42,872 nucleotides of DNA from Pseudomonadota bacterium. Its GTDB lineage: Bacteria; Pseudomonadota; Gammaproteobacteria; Acidiferrobacterales; Acidiferrobacteraceae. The DNA is taken from contig JAJYDN010000018.1 in the NCBI GenBank assembly GCA_021777535.1, positions 1 through 42,872 on the forward strand, given 5' to 3'. This document shows, piece after piece, positions 17,747-22,771 of the stretch; the stretch's first letter is position 1, and every line of letters begins with the position of its first letter. The notes under the pieces were generated by a model. That model was given only the letters and a program-made list of their open reading frames with translations, was not told where the DNA came from and searched no databases. Both the position numbers and the translations under genes were made by a program.

Positions 17747-18631
17747 TTAAGGCCTTGCGGGCACGCGAGTCTTGTCAGGCACGGCGCCACGCATGGTAAG
17801 ACCCACCCCCGCCAGGATCAGCAGCCCCGCAATCGCAAGCCGCGCAGTGATCGGCTCTCCGAGAAGCGCCCAGCCGCCGAGGGCAACCATCACCGGGACT
17901 GCCAGTTGCACAGTGGCCGCGAACACCGCACGCAGTCTCGGCAACAGCGCATACCAGAGCAGGTAGACAAGCGCCGAGGTCACGGCCCCCGAGACGAGCG
18001 CCTCGAGCACACCGGCGAAACGCGGCGCGGGCGAATGTAGGGCATGCGCACCCAAGCGCACAACAGCAAGCCCCGCGGCCGCCAGCGCAGCGTAGACGAA
18101 ATTCACGGTGGTATGCGCAAGCGGCTCGCGCACCCTGCGGCCGCCCATCGAGTACAGGCCCCAGGAAAACCCCGCGGCCAGCATGCCGGCTACCGCCCAG
18201 GGCGCCGGACGGTGGAGCTGCAGGGCCACCAGGATGTAGAGCCCGGCGAGCGCCAGCAGACCGCCGGCGACGTGGCTTACGGTTGGCCGTTCGCCGCCAA
18301 GCGTCGCCGCCATGAACATCGTCAGCTGCACGGCAAAAAAGAGCAGCAGGGCGCCCATGGCGGCACCCAACACGACATAGCTATAAGAAAACGCCGCGGC
18401 ATAGAGAAACAACCAGAATGCATTGGCCTGTGGACGCTTAAGCGGGACGCGGCGCCACGCCGACAGTACTGCAAGCAAAGCCGCACCGCTTGCGAGCCTT
18501 ATGGCGGTAAAGAGCGTTGCGCCGATCGCATGATCGCTCAAGGCCGCACGCGCAAGCAGGCTGTTTCCGGCCATGCCGGCCAGAACCACGAGTGTCGCGC
18601 CCGCCACGGAAAGATCCCGCTTACCGTCCAT
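17747..18631 (-). CDS. EamA/DMT-family transporter
   Basis: About 294 residues form ten predicted membrane segments arranged as two EamA repeats. The first runs from VAGATLVVLAGMAGNSLLAR to about LVALQLHRP, the second from WAVAGMLAAGFSWGLYSMGG to LLILAGVGLTMRG. The second half has the typical GEPITARLAIAGLLILAGV. The family exports metabolites such as amino acids, purines or cofactors; the substrate cannot be inferred. The start is uncertain: ATG 18631 begins just before helix 1, and in-frame ATG 18658 would add nine residues; neither has a clear Shine-Dalgarno. The gene is bracketed by the repeat pair at 17498 and 18912. Confidence 0.88.
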   Translation of the reverse strand: MDGKRDLSVAGATLVVLAGMAGNSLLARAALSDHAIGATLFTAIRLASGAALLAVLSAWRRVPLKRPQANAFWLFLYAAAFSYSYVVLGAAMGALLLFFAVQLTMFMAATLGGERPTVSHVAGGLLALAGLYILVALQLHRPAPWAVAGMLAAGFSWGLYSMGGRRVREPLAHTTVNFVYAALAAAGLAVVRLGAHALHSPAPRFAGVLEALVSGAVTSALVYLLWYALLPRLRAVFAATVQLAVPVMVALGGWALLGEPITARLAIAGLLILAGVGLTMRGAVPDKTRVPARP

Positions 18632-18658
18632 ACCGATGTCCGCAAAAACCGCAATCAT

Positions 18659-19693
18659 AGCCGCATGCGTGCGGATTCGATAGCACGAGGCCCCGCCCTG
18701 GCCGGGGGCGTCATTCACCTCACCAGGTCGTTCGCTGCGCGCCAGCGAAGCGAAGATGCATAGTCCGCGGGGACGGTCATGCGGCCGGCAATGTCGACAC
18801 ACCGCGTTGCGGGCCGCATGGCCTGGGGAGACTTCGACGTCCCGTCGCGCATGCGGAGGGTCGGCGCACGCTTGGACATAAAAGCAATGGTTCGGGTTCG
18901 CGGGCTTGCGGGCCCGCCTCTGCGGTCACGGACGACACGAACGGTCCCGGCCAGATAGATGCCATGGCGGCGTCACGGGTGCGGCGCCGATCCGCGCAGA
19001 CGAGCGCGCCGAATGGGGCCCGCCTGATGCGCACCCACCATACGCGGGGCTTGTGCGCGGGCGGGATACGGCCGGCGCCGCGAGGGACGACCAGCGGCAG
19101 ACCCTCCCAGGCGGGGACGTCGGCGACATCGGGTAAGGGAAGTGCGTCTTCGCGACCCCTGCCCGAAAACGGGGCCACTGGGGCATGGAGAACCACCTGT
19201 ACCATGTGGACCATGAGGCCTGCCACGAAGAACCATTGCCGCGCGGGACCCATCGGTCAAACCCTCGCCTGCCGGCGCCGCTTGGCCTTGCGCCTCCCCG
19301 CCCGTTTCTGCGATCCCAACATCCAAAGCCGCGTTACAGGCCTTTGGCCGCGCAAGGTCGGACAAGGTATTGAGAATACGGTACCAGGAGGGCCGCCAAC
19401 GCCCAAAACCCCGGAGACTACGCGGTGCCAGCCCGCGCAGGCGTGCACCTTGCGATCGCGTCGTCGGTAATCGGTAATTAATTTGCCCGGAAGCGGTCCC
19501 CCGCCATTCCTGGCTACCCACACCATCGATTGTGGACCGCCTCAGGCATCCTGTGATGGAGATACGACACAAACTGCGCGACGCTGACGGAACAATGGGG
19601 GCACACCGCCACGGATTGACTTGCCAGACAGCCTTGGCAATGATGGGTCATGCGAAAGCAACAGCAGACAGCCGGCCGGCCTCCGGAGCCGTC
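18659..19693. other. 1-kb gene-free region with the second repeat copy
   Basis: A minus-strand frame (18777-19253) is open and starts fairly protein-like (FFVAGLMVHMVQVVLHAPV), but it becomes Arg/Pro-rich and shows no domain. Part of it, RDAAMASIWPGPF, parallels RDAAIASLWWPGPF read from copy A on the same strand. That may reflect only the DNA repeat. GCGTCATTCACCTC (18708-18721) and repeat copy B (18912-19009) lie here. I see nothing firm in 19254-19693. Confidence 0.4.
18912..19009 (+). repeat. copy B of the diverged direct repeat flanking the EamA gene
   Basis: It matches copy A at 17498-17595 over about 100 bases, with several exact blocks of 12-16 bases. A separate shared block, GCGTCATTCACCTC, lies about 200 bases before this copy but only about 60 bases before copy A, so the spacing has drifted. 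Confidence 0.65.
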
Positions 19694-20704
19694 ATGACCG
19701 CCCAGGGGGGCGGTGGCCGCGCGGCGCTTTTCTTCCTGTTTTTGCTCGCCGCTTATCCCCTCTGGCCCTATGTCGTTCCCCTGTTTGCGGGCGCCGTCCT
19801 CTGCGCGGTCGGCTGGCGCACGCAACTTGCGTTCGAGAGGCGCTTCCACGTGCCGCGCATGGTCGGCGCGGCGGTCCACGCGCTCGTCTGGCTTGCCATC
19901 ATCGCCATCCCGGCCTCCCTCATCATCCAGACGGTTGCCGCCAATCTCGGGCCGCTCATCGCGAAATGGCAATCGGGGGCCCCCCTGTTCACTGTCCCTG
20001 CGCGCCTTGCACAAATACCCTTCATCGGCGCGTGGCTCAGCCGGCGCCTGCATGAACTGAACGCGAAGATCCTTCTCCATTACCTCCAGGAACACGCGGG
20101 CTTCATAAAGGACAGCCTCGCTCATGTCTGGATTCTGTTCCTGCATACCGTGATCGCGGCGCTCGCAGTCCTTTCTCTGGGCTTGCGCGGCGAACACGTC
20201 GATGCCGAACTCCACCGTATCGCGCACACCCTGTGGGGCGCCCGCGGGCCGGAGGTCATCGCCATCGCGATGCGTTCGGCGCGCGCCGTCATGATCGGAC
20301 TGATCGGCGTCGGCGTGGCCGAAGGCGTGCTCATCGGCGCAAGCTATAGCCTCGCCCGCATGCCGATGTGGACCGTGTGGATGGTCGCGACGATGCTTCT
20401 TTCGGCCATCCCTTTCGGGGCCGGCGCCATAGTCGCATTGGCCACCGGCTGGCTGATGTTGAACGGGCATCTCCTGGCCGGGATCCTCGTGGCCGCCTGG
20501 GGGACCATCGTCATCACTGCCGCCGACCTGGCCTTGCGGCCGCTCGTCACCGGCGCGCAAAGCCCTGTGCCCTTCCTGCTGCTGCTCCTCAGCATCCTGG
20601 GCGGCGCCAAGGTGTTTGGCCTGGTGGGCGTCATTGCCGGCCCCTTTTTCGTGATGGTGGCAAGCGGCCTGTGGCAGGCGTGGCTGCGGGAACCGGCCGC
20701 CTAG
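19694..20704 (+). CDS. AI-2E family (PerM/YdgG-like) membrane protein
   Basis: A 336-residue polytopic protein with the AI-2E transporter family plan. A pair of N-terminal membrane segments (ALFFLFLLAAYPLWPYVVPL) is followed by a helix, a large loop containing the predicted amphipathic region (LSRRLHELNAKILLHYLQEH), and a C-terminal helical bundle including GLIGVGVAEGVLIGASY, AIPFGAGAIVALATGW and ILGGAKVFGLVGVIAGPFF. Members are variously linked to signal export or to transport of ions or small molecules; the role here is open. GGAG at 19685-19688 selects ATG 19694. Its stop overlaps that of the convergent ATP-grasp gene in a shared CTAG. Confidence 0.88.
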   Translation: MTAQGGGGRAALFFLFLLAAYPLWPYVVPLFAGAVLCAVGWRTQLAFERRFHVPRMVGAAVHALVWLAIIAIPASLIIQTVAANLGPLIAKWQSGAPLFTVPARLAQIPFIGAWLSRRLHELNAKILLHYLQEHAGFIKDSLAHVWILFLHTVIAALAVLSLGLRGEHVDAELHRIAHTLWGARGPEVIAIAMRSARAVMIGLIGVGVAEGVLIGASYSLARMPMWTVWMVATMLLSAIPFGAGAIVALATGWLMLNGHLLAGILVAAWGTIVITAADLALRPLVTGAQSPVPFLLLLLSILGGAKVFGLVGVIAGPFFVMVASGLWQAWLREPAA

Positions 20705-21969
20705 GAAGTGGCCGGCTGCACCCGCCAGGTCGGCGCGACTACGAACCGCAGATGGGCATGCGCGGTCTTCAGTGCCCCGTAGACCTCGTCGAAGGTGGGT
20801 GCGCGCGCGAAGATGAAACCGACATAACTCGACCCCTCCGGCAGCGGCACCAGTTCCTGTCCCTCATGCACGTCGATCACGACGTCTTCGACGCCCGGTA
20901 CCCGGTCGGCCGCCATCAGGCCCTCCACACGGCGCAGGATGCCGGCGGCAGGCACGGGAATCATGAGAACGCCCGCCGCCCCCTCCGGGCGTCCCGGCAA
21001 GACCGGTTCCCGCAAGGCGTGGCGGACCACCACCTCCTCCAGCGAACGCCCGAGCCCGAAACGCAGCAGCCGCCCGCACAGGCCTCCAATCGTGCGCGCG
21101 GCAATCTCGACGATGAACACGCCTTGCGCATTGATGCGGCACTCGGCGTGCAGCGGGCCCTCACGCAGCCCGTAGGCGTGCGCGCCCCGCTCGACCTCCT
21201 CGCGGACAGCTTCCTGTAACGCCGCCGGCAGACGCGAGGGGGTGATGTAATAACTTTCCTCGAAGAACGGACCATCGAGGGGTTCGGGCTTGTCGAAAAG
21301 GGCGAGCACCGCGAGCTTTCCGCCGGTCAGCAATCCTTCGAGGGCCACTTCCCGCCCGGGAATGAACGCCTCGATCAGCGCAAGCCGGGGCCGTGCGCGG
21401 GCACAGTTGTCCAAAAGCCGTCCAAGGCGCGCAAGACTGGCATGGAGGGCGACGGCATCATCGATGCGCATGACGCCCTGGCTTGCCGACAGGGAAACGG
21501 GTTTTAGGACCAGCGGGTAGGGAAAGGCCGCAGCCGCAGCCGCCTGGGGCGGCTCTTCGAGATCGATGACACGGTGCCAGGGGGTTTTTACCGACGCTGC
21601 GGCCAGTGCGGCGCGGGCCCAGTCCTTGCGCCGGGCGATCCGCAGGGCGGATGGGGGATTGGCCGCCAGGCCGAGACCTGCGGCAATGACGCCCGCGATC
21701 TCGCTTCCCAGGTCATCCAGGCCAAGGACTGCCGCAAAGGGCCCGTGACGGCGCACTTCCTCGCCGACATCGCGCACGCAGCCATCCGGATCGGCAAACG
21801 TAAGCCGCAGGCCCGGCGCACCGGGATCGACCAGGGGCGATGTACCTTCGCTGGCAAACACCGGTACTGCGCCGGCTACCCGGACCGCCTCCAGAAATGG
21901 TGCGGTCCGGTAGCTGCCGAATGGCGCAACGACCAGCAGGCGCGGCTTGGCGTTATCCGCAGCCGCCAC
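20701..21969 (-). CDS. ATP-grasp enzyme, L-amino-acid-ligase-like
   Basis: A cytoplasmic ATP-grasp ligase of about 422 residues. The N-domain has LLVVAPFGSYRTAPFLEAVR; the ATP-binding part has ARRKDWARAALAAA and PYPLVLKPVSLSASQG (ATP-contacting Lys); metal-binding residues lie in LHAECRINAQGVFIVEIAAR. The C-terminal region (GILRRVEGL, GQELVPLPEGSSYVGFIFAR) resembles the extra domain of L-amino-acid ligases. It should activate a carboxylate with ATP and join it to an amine; the substrates are unknown. I place the start at GTG 21969, 17 nt inside the upstream Fe-S carrier gene. ATG 22074 would add an Ala-rich leader that is just another frame of the carrier's Gly/Cys tail. Confidence 0.82.
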   Translation of the reverse strand: MAAADNAKPRLLVVAPFGSYRTAPFLEAVRVAGAVPVFASEGTSPLVDPGAPGLRLTFADPDGCVRDVGEEVRRHGPFAAVLGLDDLGSEIAGVIAAGLGLAANPPSALRIARRKDWARAALAAASVKTPWHRVIDLEEPPQAAAAAAFPYPLVLKPVSLSASQGVMRIDDAVALHASLARLGRLLDNCARARPRLALIEAFIPGREVALEGLLTGGKLAVLALFDKPEPLDGPFFEESYYITPSRLPAALQEAVREEVERGAHAYGLREGPLHAECRINAQGVFIVEIAARTIGGLCGRLLRFGLGRSLEEVVVRHALREPVLPGRPEGAAGVLMIPVPAAGILRRVEGLMAADRVPGVEDVVIDVHEGQELVPLPEGSSYVGFIFARAPTFDEVYGALKTAHAHLRFVVAPTWRVQPATS

Positions 21970-22384
21970 CGCCGCCGCAGCCGCCGCCGCTTCCCCCGCC
22001 GCAACCCCCGCCGCCGCAACCCCCGCCGCTCGAACGCGGGGAGACGTTACGGAACAAGAAGCGCGCACCGTCATCTTCCGTGTAATCGATTTCGGCGCCC
22101 TCGAGATAATTCAGGGCGACTGCGTCGATGTAGAGGGCCAGATCCCCCGACGTCCAGGTCGCATCCTGGGGATTGGGCGCCTCGGCAAGCCCCATACCAT
22201 ACGAAAGGCCGCTACAGCCGCCACCGGCCACGAAGACGCGCACGCCCGTGACGCCATCGGCTGCGGCCGACTGCACGATCTCGGTCAGCTTCTCGCGGGC
22301 CGCCTCGGTCACGCGGATCATCTCGTCGCTGTTCATGTGTTGCGGAAACACGGCACCGGCCGAAGCGGCTTGGTCCTGGTACAT
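21953..22384 (-). CDS. A-type Fe-S carrier (IscA/ErpA family) with a Gly/Cys-rich tail
   Basis: The 143-residue HesB/IscA-like protein has MIRVTEAAREKLTEIV, then VRVFVAGGGCSGLSYGMGLAE with the first conserved Cys, and DLALYIDAVALNYLEGAEIDY. Standard members end with a C-G-C pair that completes the cluster site. Here the sequence after FRNVSPRSS is GGGCGGGGCGGGSGGGCGGG followed by GGCG: four Cys spaced in glycine with no C-x-C. ATG 22384 has AGAGG eight bases upstream, and upstream GTG and ATG codons fit less well. The downstream ATP-grasp gene overlaps its end. It likely carries or delivers 2Fe-2S or 4Fe-4S clusters. Confidence 0.88.
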   Translation of the reverse strand: MYQDQAASAGAVFPQHMNSDEMIRVTEAAREKLTEIVQSAAADGVTGVRVFVAGGGCSGLSYGMGLAEAPNPQDATWTSGDLALYIDAVALNYLEGAEIDYTEDDGARFLFRNVSPRSSGGGCGGGGCGGGSGGGCGGGGGCG

Positions 22385-22507
22385 GCGCATCACCTCTGGG
22401 AGAGAAAAATGCCAGTATAGCGCGTTGCCCCGCCCAAAACATGCTGGCCGCGACGGACCTCCTGCCTTTATACTGGACGCTTCAGGTTTTTTTTAGAGGG
22501 ATCCCCC

Positions 22508-22771
22508 GTGCGCATGGTTTATTGCCGCATTCTGCAACGCGAGGCCGAAGGGCTCGACCGTCCCCCCTACCCGGGTGAACTTGGCACCCGCGTCTTTGAG
22601 GAAATCTCGCGGGAGGCCTGGACGCGCTGGCTGGACCAGCTGTCCGTGCTCATGAACGAACACGGACTGAGCAGCGCCGATCCGCAGGCCCTGAACGACA
22701 TCGAAAATCTCATGCGCGCCCATTTCTTCGGCGGTCAGCCGGTACCGTTGCGGCCCAAAGGGAAGAAGTAG
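22508..22771 (+). CDS. yggX: Fe(2+)-trafficking / oxidative damage protection protein YggX
   Basis: An 87-residue protein with the YggX signature: VYCRILQREAEGLDRPPYPGELG, a Cys near the N-terminus, ISREAWTRWLDQLSVLMNE and an acidic/aromatic end. YggX proteins limit oxidative damage to Fe-S clusters and are linked to labile iron handling in the cytoplasm. GAGGG at 22496-22500 is spaced 7 nt from GTG 22508 and 13 nt from ATG 22514, so GTG is preferred. It is divergent from the Fe-S carrier gene, a sensible functional neighbourhood. Confidence 0.93.
   Translation: MRMVYCRILQREAEGLDRPPYPGELGTRVFEEISREAWTRWLDQLSVLMNEHGLSSADPQALNDIENLMRAHFFGGQPVPLRPKGKK

Follow-up and report, generated by a model that had tools for sequence, protein, structure and literature searches.

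A clade of A-type Fe-S carriers with a Gly-rich C-x-x-C arm, found in company with an ATP-grasp ligase and YggX

We describe a clade of A-type Fe-S carriers (ATCs), one member of which is encoded in a 42,872-nucleotide stretch of a Pseudomonadota genome (the window), beside genes for an ATP-grasp ligase and for YggX. As read from sequence, the clade-wide change is from a C-terminal C-x-C ligand pair to C-x-x-C. Our preferred reading, which we hold to be fairly probable, is a dedicated Fe-S carrier whose ligand arm passed from CxC to a Gly-rich CxxC and which would work together with the ligase and YggX.

The carrier gene and its protein

The carrier gene runs on the minus strand from an ATG at 22384 to a TAA ending at 21953 (22384..21953) and encodes 143 aa. 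This start is favored over the GTG at 22393 given in the list of open reading frames because CAT, the minus-strand ATG, is kept there in 11 of 11 rows of a family-level alignment. The protein belongs to the Fe-S_biosyn family (PF01521, 45.1 bits, cut-off 26.3) and also exceeds the cut-off of TIGR00049 (73.2, cut-off 58.8), while scores against the NCBIfam equivalogs for ErpA (76.6, cut-off 117), IscA (45.5, cut-off 150.6) and SufA (55.7, cut-off 136.2) all fall short; by these profile scores, it is filed in PF01521 outside ErpA, IscA and SufA. Foldseek matches for the predicted structure are 2apn (HI1723), 2d2a, 1s98 and 1x0g, representing HI1723, SufA and IscA folds. The window genome (G000) also has an A-type gene of the canonical ErpA type, which ends in CGCGSSFSV (L001).

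The first Cys (residue 57) sits in the motif GGGCSGLSYG, as the first-pass annotation had pointed out. That annotation also held that the usual C-G-C gives way to four Cys within Gly runs, and the translation agrees: the tail is real and in frame, with Cys at 123, 128, 136 and 142 (numbering of the 143-aa form) in FRNVSPRSSGGGCGGGGCGGGSGGGCGGGGGCG, the C-terminal tail being also written as SGGGCGGGGCGGGSGGGCGGGGGCG. The spacing, C-G4-C-G3SG3-C-G5-C, departs from the Cys-Xn-Cys-X-Cys motif of A-type carriers. In the structure prediction, for which a 127-aa form was folded, pLDDT is below 50 at residues 102-127, and the Gly/Cys arm is predicted to be disordered. Two other interpretations of this DNA were set aside. 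The gene does not have the form of a RiPP precursor, a short peptide with leader and core, since an A-type domain of ~100 aa precedes the tail in the same protein; and a plus-strand poly-Ala ORF over the tail (21947-22420) was dismissed as a mere reflection of the GC-rich repeat on the other strand.

Tails across the clade

A search over 60 genomes, the window's included, found a Gly/Cys tail in the carrier frame at all 30 best-match loci (L002-L031, L002 being the window's own locus). These 30 in-frame tails, together with the tandem array in the tail DNA described below, argue that the tail is not a product of chance. Tails of same-family relatives are exemplified by FRNVFARSGGGGACGGCGGGGCGSH and those of more distant relatives by FVFNNVFKAVGGSGTCGGCGGGGF. 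A scan of genome contigs (the best-scoring 80 loci listed, L032-L111) added Gammaproteobacteria MAG records, among them Acidiferrobacterales, Ectothiorhodospiraceae, Chromatiales, Methylococcales and Arenicellales. Both L002-L031 and L032-L111 are best-scoring matches and so lean to close relatives, and the contig scan shares contigs with the genome sets (L002-L031, L112-L206; e.g., L032 and G042:C82, L054 and G239:C33), so that counts from the sets are not additive.

Clade members were recognized by sequence pattern and identical 60-residue tails were collapsed, giving 123 distinct tails among the matches listed. CxxC is present in 116 of them, CxC alone in none, and neither in seven: the window gene, L015, L047, L176, L179, L184 and L053, the last cut by a contig end. 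The six uncut tails without CxxC show that some members do without this precise spacing. Two Cys occur in 41 tails, three in 79, four in one (the window), five in one (L047) and none in one (the cut L053). The last residue varies (A in 41, G in 32, F in 15 and H in 14 of the 123), as does tail length. In a tree of 96 rows and 139 columns, in which many forks are open, the carriers form a clade of 68 rows (support 99/94) that stands apart from ErpA, IscA and Chloroflexi carriers. L201-L204, four carriers whose tails have CGTC and whose fetched stretches show no ligase match, fall within this clade.

These counts revise one part of the first-pass annotation. The replacement of the ligand pair stands, but the four-Cys form is local to the window gene and not a general feature. 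Close relatives ending in a normal C-G-C, together with a tail arising from a local frameshift or assembly error, had been named there as what would overturn its proposal; no tail carries CxC alone, and relatives share the reading frame. The annotation's suggestion that the arm could bind extra iron or another metal is not needed to account for the tails, 41 of which have two Cys and 79 three. A multi-Cys arm could alternatively be a metallothionein-like metal store or sensor, in line with that suggestion, for which the four Cys of the window gene, the five of L047 and the neighboring yggX would speak. We regard this as highly improbable, given that 120 of the 123 tails have only two or three Cys and that the first carrier Cys is kept in 25 of 25 aligned sequences.

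The DNA encoding the window tail is a GC-rich tandem array (21957-22029) with units of 12, 15 and 27 bp, identified with Tandem Repeats Finder and by codon comparison with the genomes G002 and G011. The window tail has the codons GGC GGG GGT TGC GGC twice in succession, while the sister genome G002 reads GGC GGC GGC GCC TGC GGC GGG TGC GGC GGC GGT GGT GGT TGC GGA, giving the pattern C-GG-C-G5-C with CxxC retained. On this comparison, the four-Cys tail is best read as a late derivative, in which an in-frame repeat expansion of a C-x-x-C...C arm would have cost the CxxC. The number of repeat units at 21957-22029 depends on the 76-contig assembly, but local frameshift or assembly error was rejected as a general cause, as the carrier frame likewise runs into Gly/Cys tails in G002 and other members of the family.

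The adjoining ATP-grasp ligase

Downstream of the carrier and also on the minus strand lies a gene for an ATP-grasp ligase of the L-amino-acid-ligase (LAL) type (20701..21969; ~422 aa from a GTG start candidate), assigned by Pfam, alignment, structure model and Foldseek. Pfam scores are 92.3 bits for ATP-grasp_4 (cut-off 27) and 55.1 for LAL_C2 (cut-off 29.4). By profile, the nearest solved relative in sequence is BL00235 (3vot; E 5.1e-65, positions 21-407 of 413), and 3vot is also the best Foldseek match of the ligase model (pLDDT 91.7; E 1.3e-33, 24-25% identity), so that the protein has both the domains and the fold of an L-amino acid ligase. Residues invariant in 33 of 33 aligned ligases include S16, Y17, R18, K112, K153, E197, H271, E273, R289, G292, G293 and C295; given the invariance of K112, K153, E197, H271, E273, R289 and C295, the ligase looks competent.

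Read from its GTG start candidate, the ligase gene shares 17 nt with the 3' end of the carrier gene. At the loci measured, the ligase is on the same strand as the carrier and its aligned part starts from 10 nt before to 150 nt after the carrier stop; in L022, where the alignment is partial, it starts 305 nt after. With ligase GTG start candidates falling within the codons of the carrier tail, both in the window genome and in its family (L003-L013), the Gly codons might mainly constitute the ribosome-binding and start region of the overlapping gene, the encoded amino acids being a by-product. This we find hardly credible: such tails also occur where ligase start candidates fall downstream of the carrier stop, where no ligase adjoins (L064, L066, L188) or where it is on the opposite strand (L154), and a ribosome-binding site needs no spaced Cys.

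yggX and other features of the window

The gene divergent from the carrier, on the plus strand at 22508..22771, encodes a member of the Fe(2+)-trafficking family (YggX; PF04362, 88.6 bits), confirming the arrangement given in the first-pass annotation; the window genome has two yggX matches. The role of YggX is still debated. In the intergenic region (22385..22507), -10-like TATACT is found on both strands. An alignment of 11 family-level intergenic regions keeps AGTATAG upstream of the carrier in its rows and TATACT on the yggX side in most of them, which is consistent with two divergent -10 elements between the genes and a putative promoter role. The divergent carrier-yggX intergenic stretches gave no Fur box (best match listed with at least 6 of 19 mismatches) and no pattern match to an IscR type-2 site.

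Genes for an AI-2E family transporter (19532-20704) and an EamA transporter (17747-18802) lie beside these genes; by tblastn, the former also adjoins the ligase in several family members. In the Rfam and tRNA searches, the only match within the window was one tRNA-Glu, at 2780.

Gene company of the carrier

With the window neighbors as tblastn queries, a ligase was found beside the carrier in 29 of the 30 loci L002-L031 (not L015) and yggX in 28 (not L007 or L015). Among the best-scoring 80 genome-contig loci, ligase matches occur in 43 of 47 clade loci vs. 0 of 33 other A-type loci. The corresponding figures for yggX are 31 of 47 vs. 0 of 33, a weak contrast because only 11 of the 33 are named Pseudomonadota (of the remainder, 21 come from Chloroflexi or unnamed bacteria and one from Nitrospirae) and the others may have no yggX at all. 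Clade members without an adjoining ligase include L064, L066, L160, L170, L188 and L201-L204.

Co-occurrence was assessed in 274 tool-drawn genomes of the same class, with cut-offs of E <= 1e-39 for the carrier (set after the list was viewed, so that G112 and G248 count as positive) and E <= 1e-40 for the ligase. The carrier is present in 53 genomes, the ligase in 51 and both in 49 (Fisher p 7.5e-47, overstated since the genomes are related by descent). Presence or absence of the two agrees in 268 of the 274; four genomes have a carrier without a ligase (G098, G120, G123 and G202, the last with its carrier at a contig end) and two a ligase without a carrier (G067, G181). At the 52 carrier loci of this sample (all carrier-positive genomes except G000), the ligase is downstream on the same strand in 45, on the opposite strand in one (L154) and missing in six, two of which belong to genomes with a ligase on another contig (G071, G138).

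The first-pass annotation was right to treat yggX as a meaningful neighbor, while missing the adjoining ligase and the radical-SAM paralogue of other genomes (see below). At least two yggX copies are found in 40 of 53 carrier genomes vs. 6 of 221 others (G057, G115, G166, G255, G282, G298; p 2.8e-30, again overstated by relatedness), the other 13 carrier genomes having a single copy. Within the fetched stretches, yggX is present at 36 of the 52 carrier loci and absent from 16, some of which are short. In 9 of the 52 it is divergent from the carrier and less than 1 kb upstream; in 23 it is on the opposite strand and less than 3 kb downstream. yggX thus keeps company with the carrier while changing side.

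These patterns bear on a deflationary account, in which the tail is low-complexity drift on an ordinary spare Fe-S carrier and the neighbors merely reflect inherited gene order. Some relatives do preserve the whole rnc-era-recO-pdxJ-acpS-yggX order, a tandem repeat underlies the window tail, the arm is predicted to be disordered, and length and last residue differ among the 123 tails. We nevertheless judge this account unlikely, since CxxC is kept in the great majority of tails (116 of 123), the ligase keeps its place by the carrier whereas yggX is found on either side, and carrier and ligase agree in presence and absence in nearly all genomes. Taken together, the gene associations suggest a dedicated pathway comprising the ATC, the ligase, an extra YggX and, in part of the genomes, a radical-SAM protein.

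Several further genes occur near carriers of the class sample. In part of the sample, the divergent upstream neighbors of the carrier include a Porin_O_P-type gene (a cluster found in 13 loci) and an FMN-binding-domain gene (11 loci); examples are L156, L158, L166, L167, L169, L173, L178, L183, L186 and L187, with Pfam run on L158 and L166 only. These neighbors hint at a setting in envelope redox chemistry or iron uptake. A HemJ-like gene follows the carrier at a distance of 2.0-3.8 kb in 10 loci (L158, L160, L162, L164, L165, L172, L176, L186, L187, L189) and 0.4-1.7 kb from three ligase-less carriers with CGTC tails (L201, L203, L204); that of L203, the only one scanned, matches UPF0093 at 162 bits.

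A radical-SAM paralogue in part of the genomes

Among the best-scoring genome-contig loci, 12 of 47 clade loci carry a radical-SAM gene, in 10 cases downstream of the ligase on the same strand. With the L035 protein as query, 140 of the 274 genomes have a match: 32 at E <= 1e-110 and the rest at 3.8e-64 or weaker. All 32 genomes with this special paralogue are ligase-positive (p 8.2e-29, overstated for genomes related by descent). Where the gene is away from the carrier, yggX is nearby in 12 of 20 fetched loci (L127-L131, L134, L136, L137, L139, L141, L143, L146), some of the other eight being cut by contig ends; genes that by their sequences look MutY-like and AsmA-like occur in 11 and 10 of these 20 unlinked loci, respectively. 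A client role for the radical-SAM protein is plausible where it is present. It is not the general or only client, because the paralogue is absent from 19 of the 51 ligase genomes and from the window genome, which has no match at 1e-20.

Fe-S cluster source in the window genome

Profile searches gave no match to IscU or SufB/D in the window genome, which is given as 99.6% complete. SUFBD was without a match in all eight genomes searched (G000 and seven others), while IscU was found in seven of the eight, six of them over the cut-off; the genus neighbor G002 has IscU and G000 does not. This absence is weak and no proof, because the same profile search, run with PF01521, missed the window carrier and listed only the ErpA-type gene.

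Proposed function

In the reading we prefer, the carrier would bind a labile Fe-S cluster or Fe through its first Cys and two arm Cys, by analogy with ErpA and IscA, which use C-x-C, and with the Cys-Xn-Cys-X-Cys plan set out in PMC7144353. It would then hand the cluster to a client within the module, with YggX guarding or supplying iron and the ligase forming an amide bond on a substrate in the same pathway. In the window gene, whose arm was lengthened by an in-frame repeat, any two of the four Cys could serve.

The close pairing of ligase and carrier argues for some direct relation between the two, and the ligase could act on the carrier itself, either extending the flexible C-terminus by at least one amino acid or making a small dipeptide that completes the cluster ligand set. 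The pairing and gene order are frequent, with the genes overlapping or close; the Gly arm is predicted to be flexible; the ligase profile aligns with almost the entire length of a LAL (3vot); and there is a precedent in ATP-grasp enzymes of the RimK type, whose substrates are the termini of ribosomal proteins (PMC6920838). Strict C-terminal recognition is hard to reconcile with last residues that are not conserved, however, and at L154 the ligase is on the opposite strand; we consider action on the carrier doubtful. A fuller form of the idea is likewise only a tentative possibility. It envisages an Fe-S module in which the ligase covalently finishes the Gly/Cys arm or makes a peptide serving as outer cluster ligand, the extra YggX feeds or guards iron, and the radical-SAM protein, where present, is client or modifier. 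If true, the ligase-finished arm would make this a post-translationally completed Fe-S carrier, of which a literature search covering few subscription papers found no case.

Returning to the dedicated carrier, a broad clade that has exchanged C-x-C for a Gly-rich C-x-x-C arm is a natural experiment in the way A-type carriers bind clusters and let them go. The clade is strongly paired with an ATP-grasp ligase, with an extra YggX and, in part, with a special radical-SAM protein; this company speaks for a pathway linked to Fe-S and places YggX in a testable gene context. The same literature search, with few subscription papers, found nothing on YggX with ATP-grasp enzymes or on A-type carriers with them.

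Comparison with known systems

The ligase shares ATP-grasp_4, LAL_C2 and the fold with the L-amino acid ligases BL00235, BacD and RizA, and differs in being linked to an Fe-S carrier. PMC6920838 gives Met-Gly and Met-Met as products of BL00235 and links P85 to the specificity of that enzyme. The P85 position is not conserved among the ligases here, and in the profile alignment the invariant Cys of their RTIGGxC motif aligns with a Ser of BL00235. For the partner radical-SAM protein, the best NCBIfam model is the AmmeMemoRadiSam enzyme (AmrS, TIGR04337), yet the one member scanned (L061) scores 215 bits, just under the cut-off of 220; the partner proteins form a separate group in the genome sample, and that of L035 has extra Cys at the C-terminus.

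Among carriers, ATC-I, ATC-II and the nif-linked ATC-III were defined by Vinella et al. (PMC2682760, in part), and Xu et al. (PMC7144353, in part) characterize A-type carriers by Cys-Xn-Cys-X-Cys and divide them into seven subfamilies, a conserved motif containing the two C-terminal Cys; the parts of these two papers examined do not describe a CxxC clade. ErpA (ATC-I; HI1723, 2apn) has the same PF01521 fold and first Cys and is the best PDB match in both sequence and fold, but has C-x-C where the present carriers, a separate clade at 99/94, have C-x-x-C and a Gly tail. IscA and SufA (ATC-II) are alike in fold and in the three-Cys carrier plan; they differ from the clade in its CxxC and in its conserved neighbors, which are the ligase and yggX and not isc or suf genes.

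Carriers of Chloroflexi, Magnetococcales and Zetaproteobacteria resemble the clade in having extra Cys in a C-terminal extension. They retain CGCG (CSCG in L111), with the extra Cys following it, e.g., GCGSGCSCHSH; such ends are found in L065, L069, L074, L077-L079, L081, L082, L084, L086, L091-L097 and others, and the 33 non-clade loci that include them are those without a ligase or yggX match. L205, an ErpA-like carrier with CGCG and then GGGCGSSGCGSSGCG, also lies outside the clade. The Chloroflexi, Magnetococcales and Zetaproteobacteria ends are an independent route to multi-Cys carrier ends.
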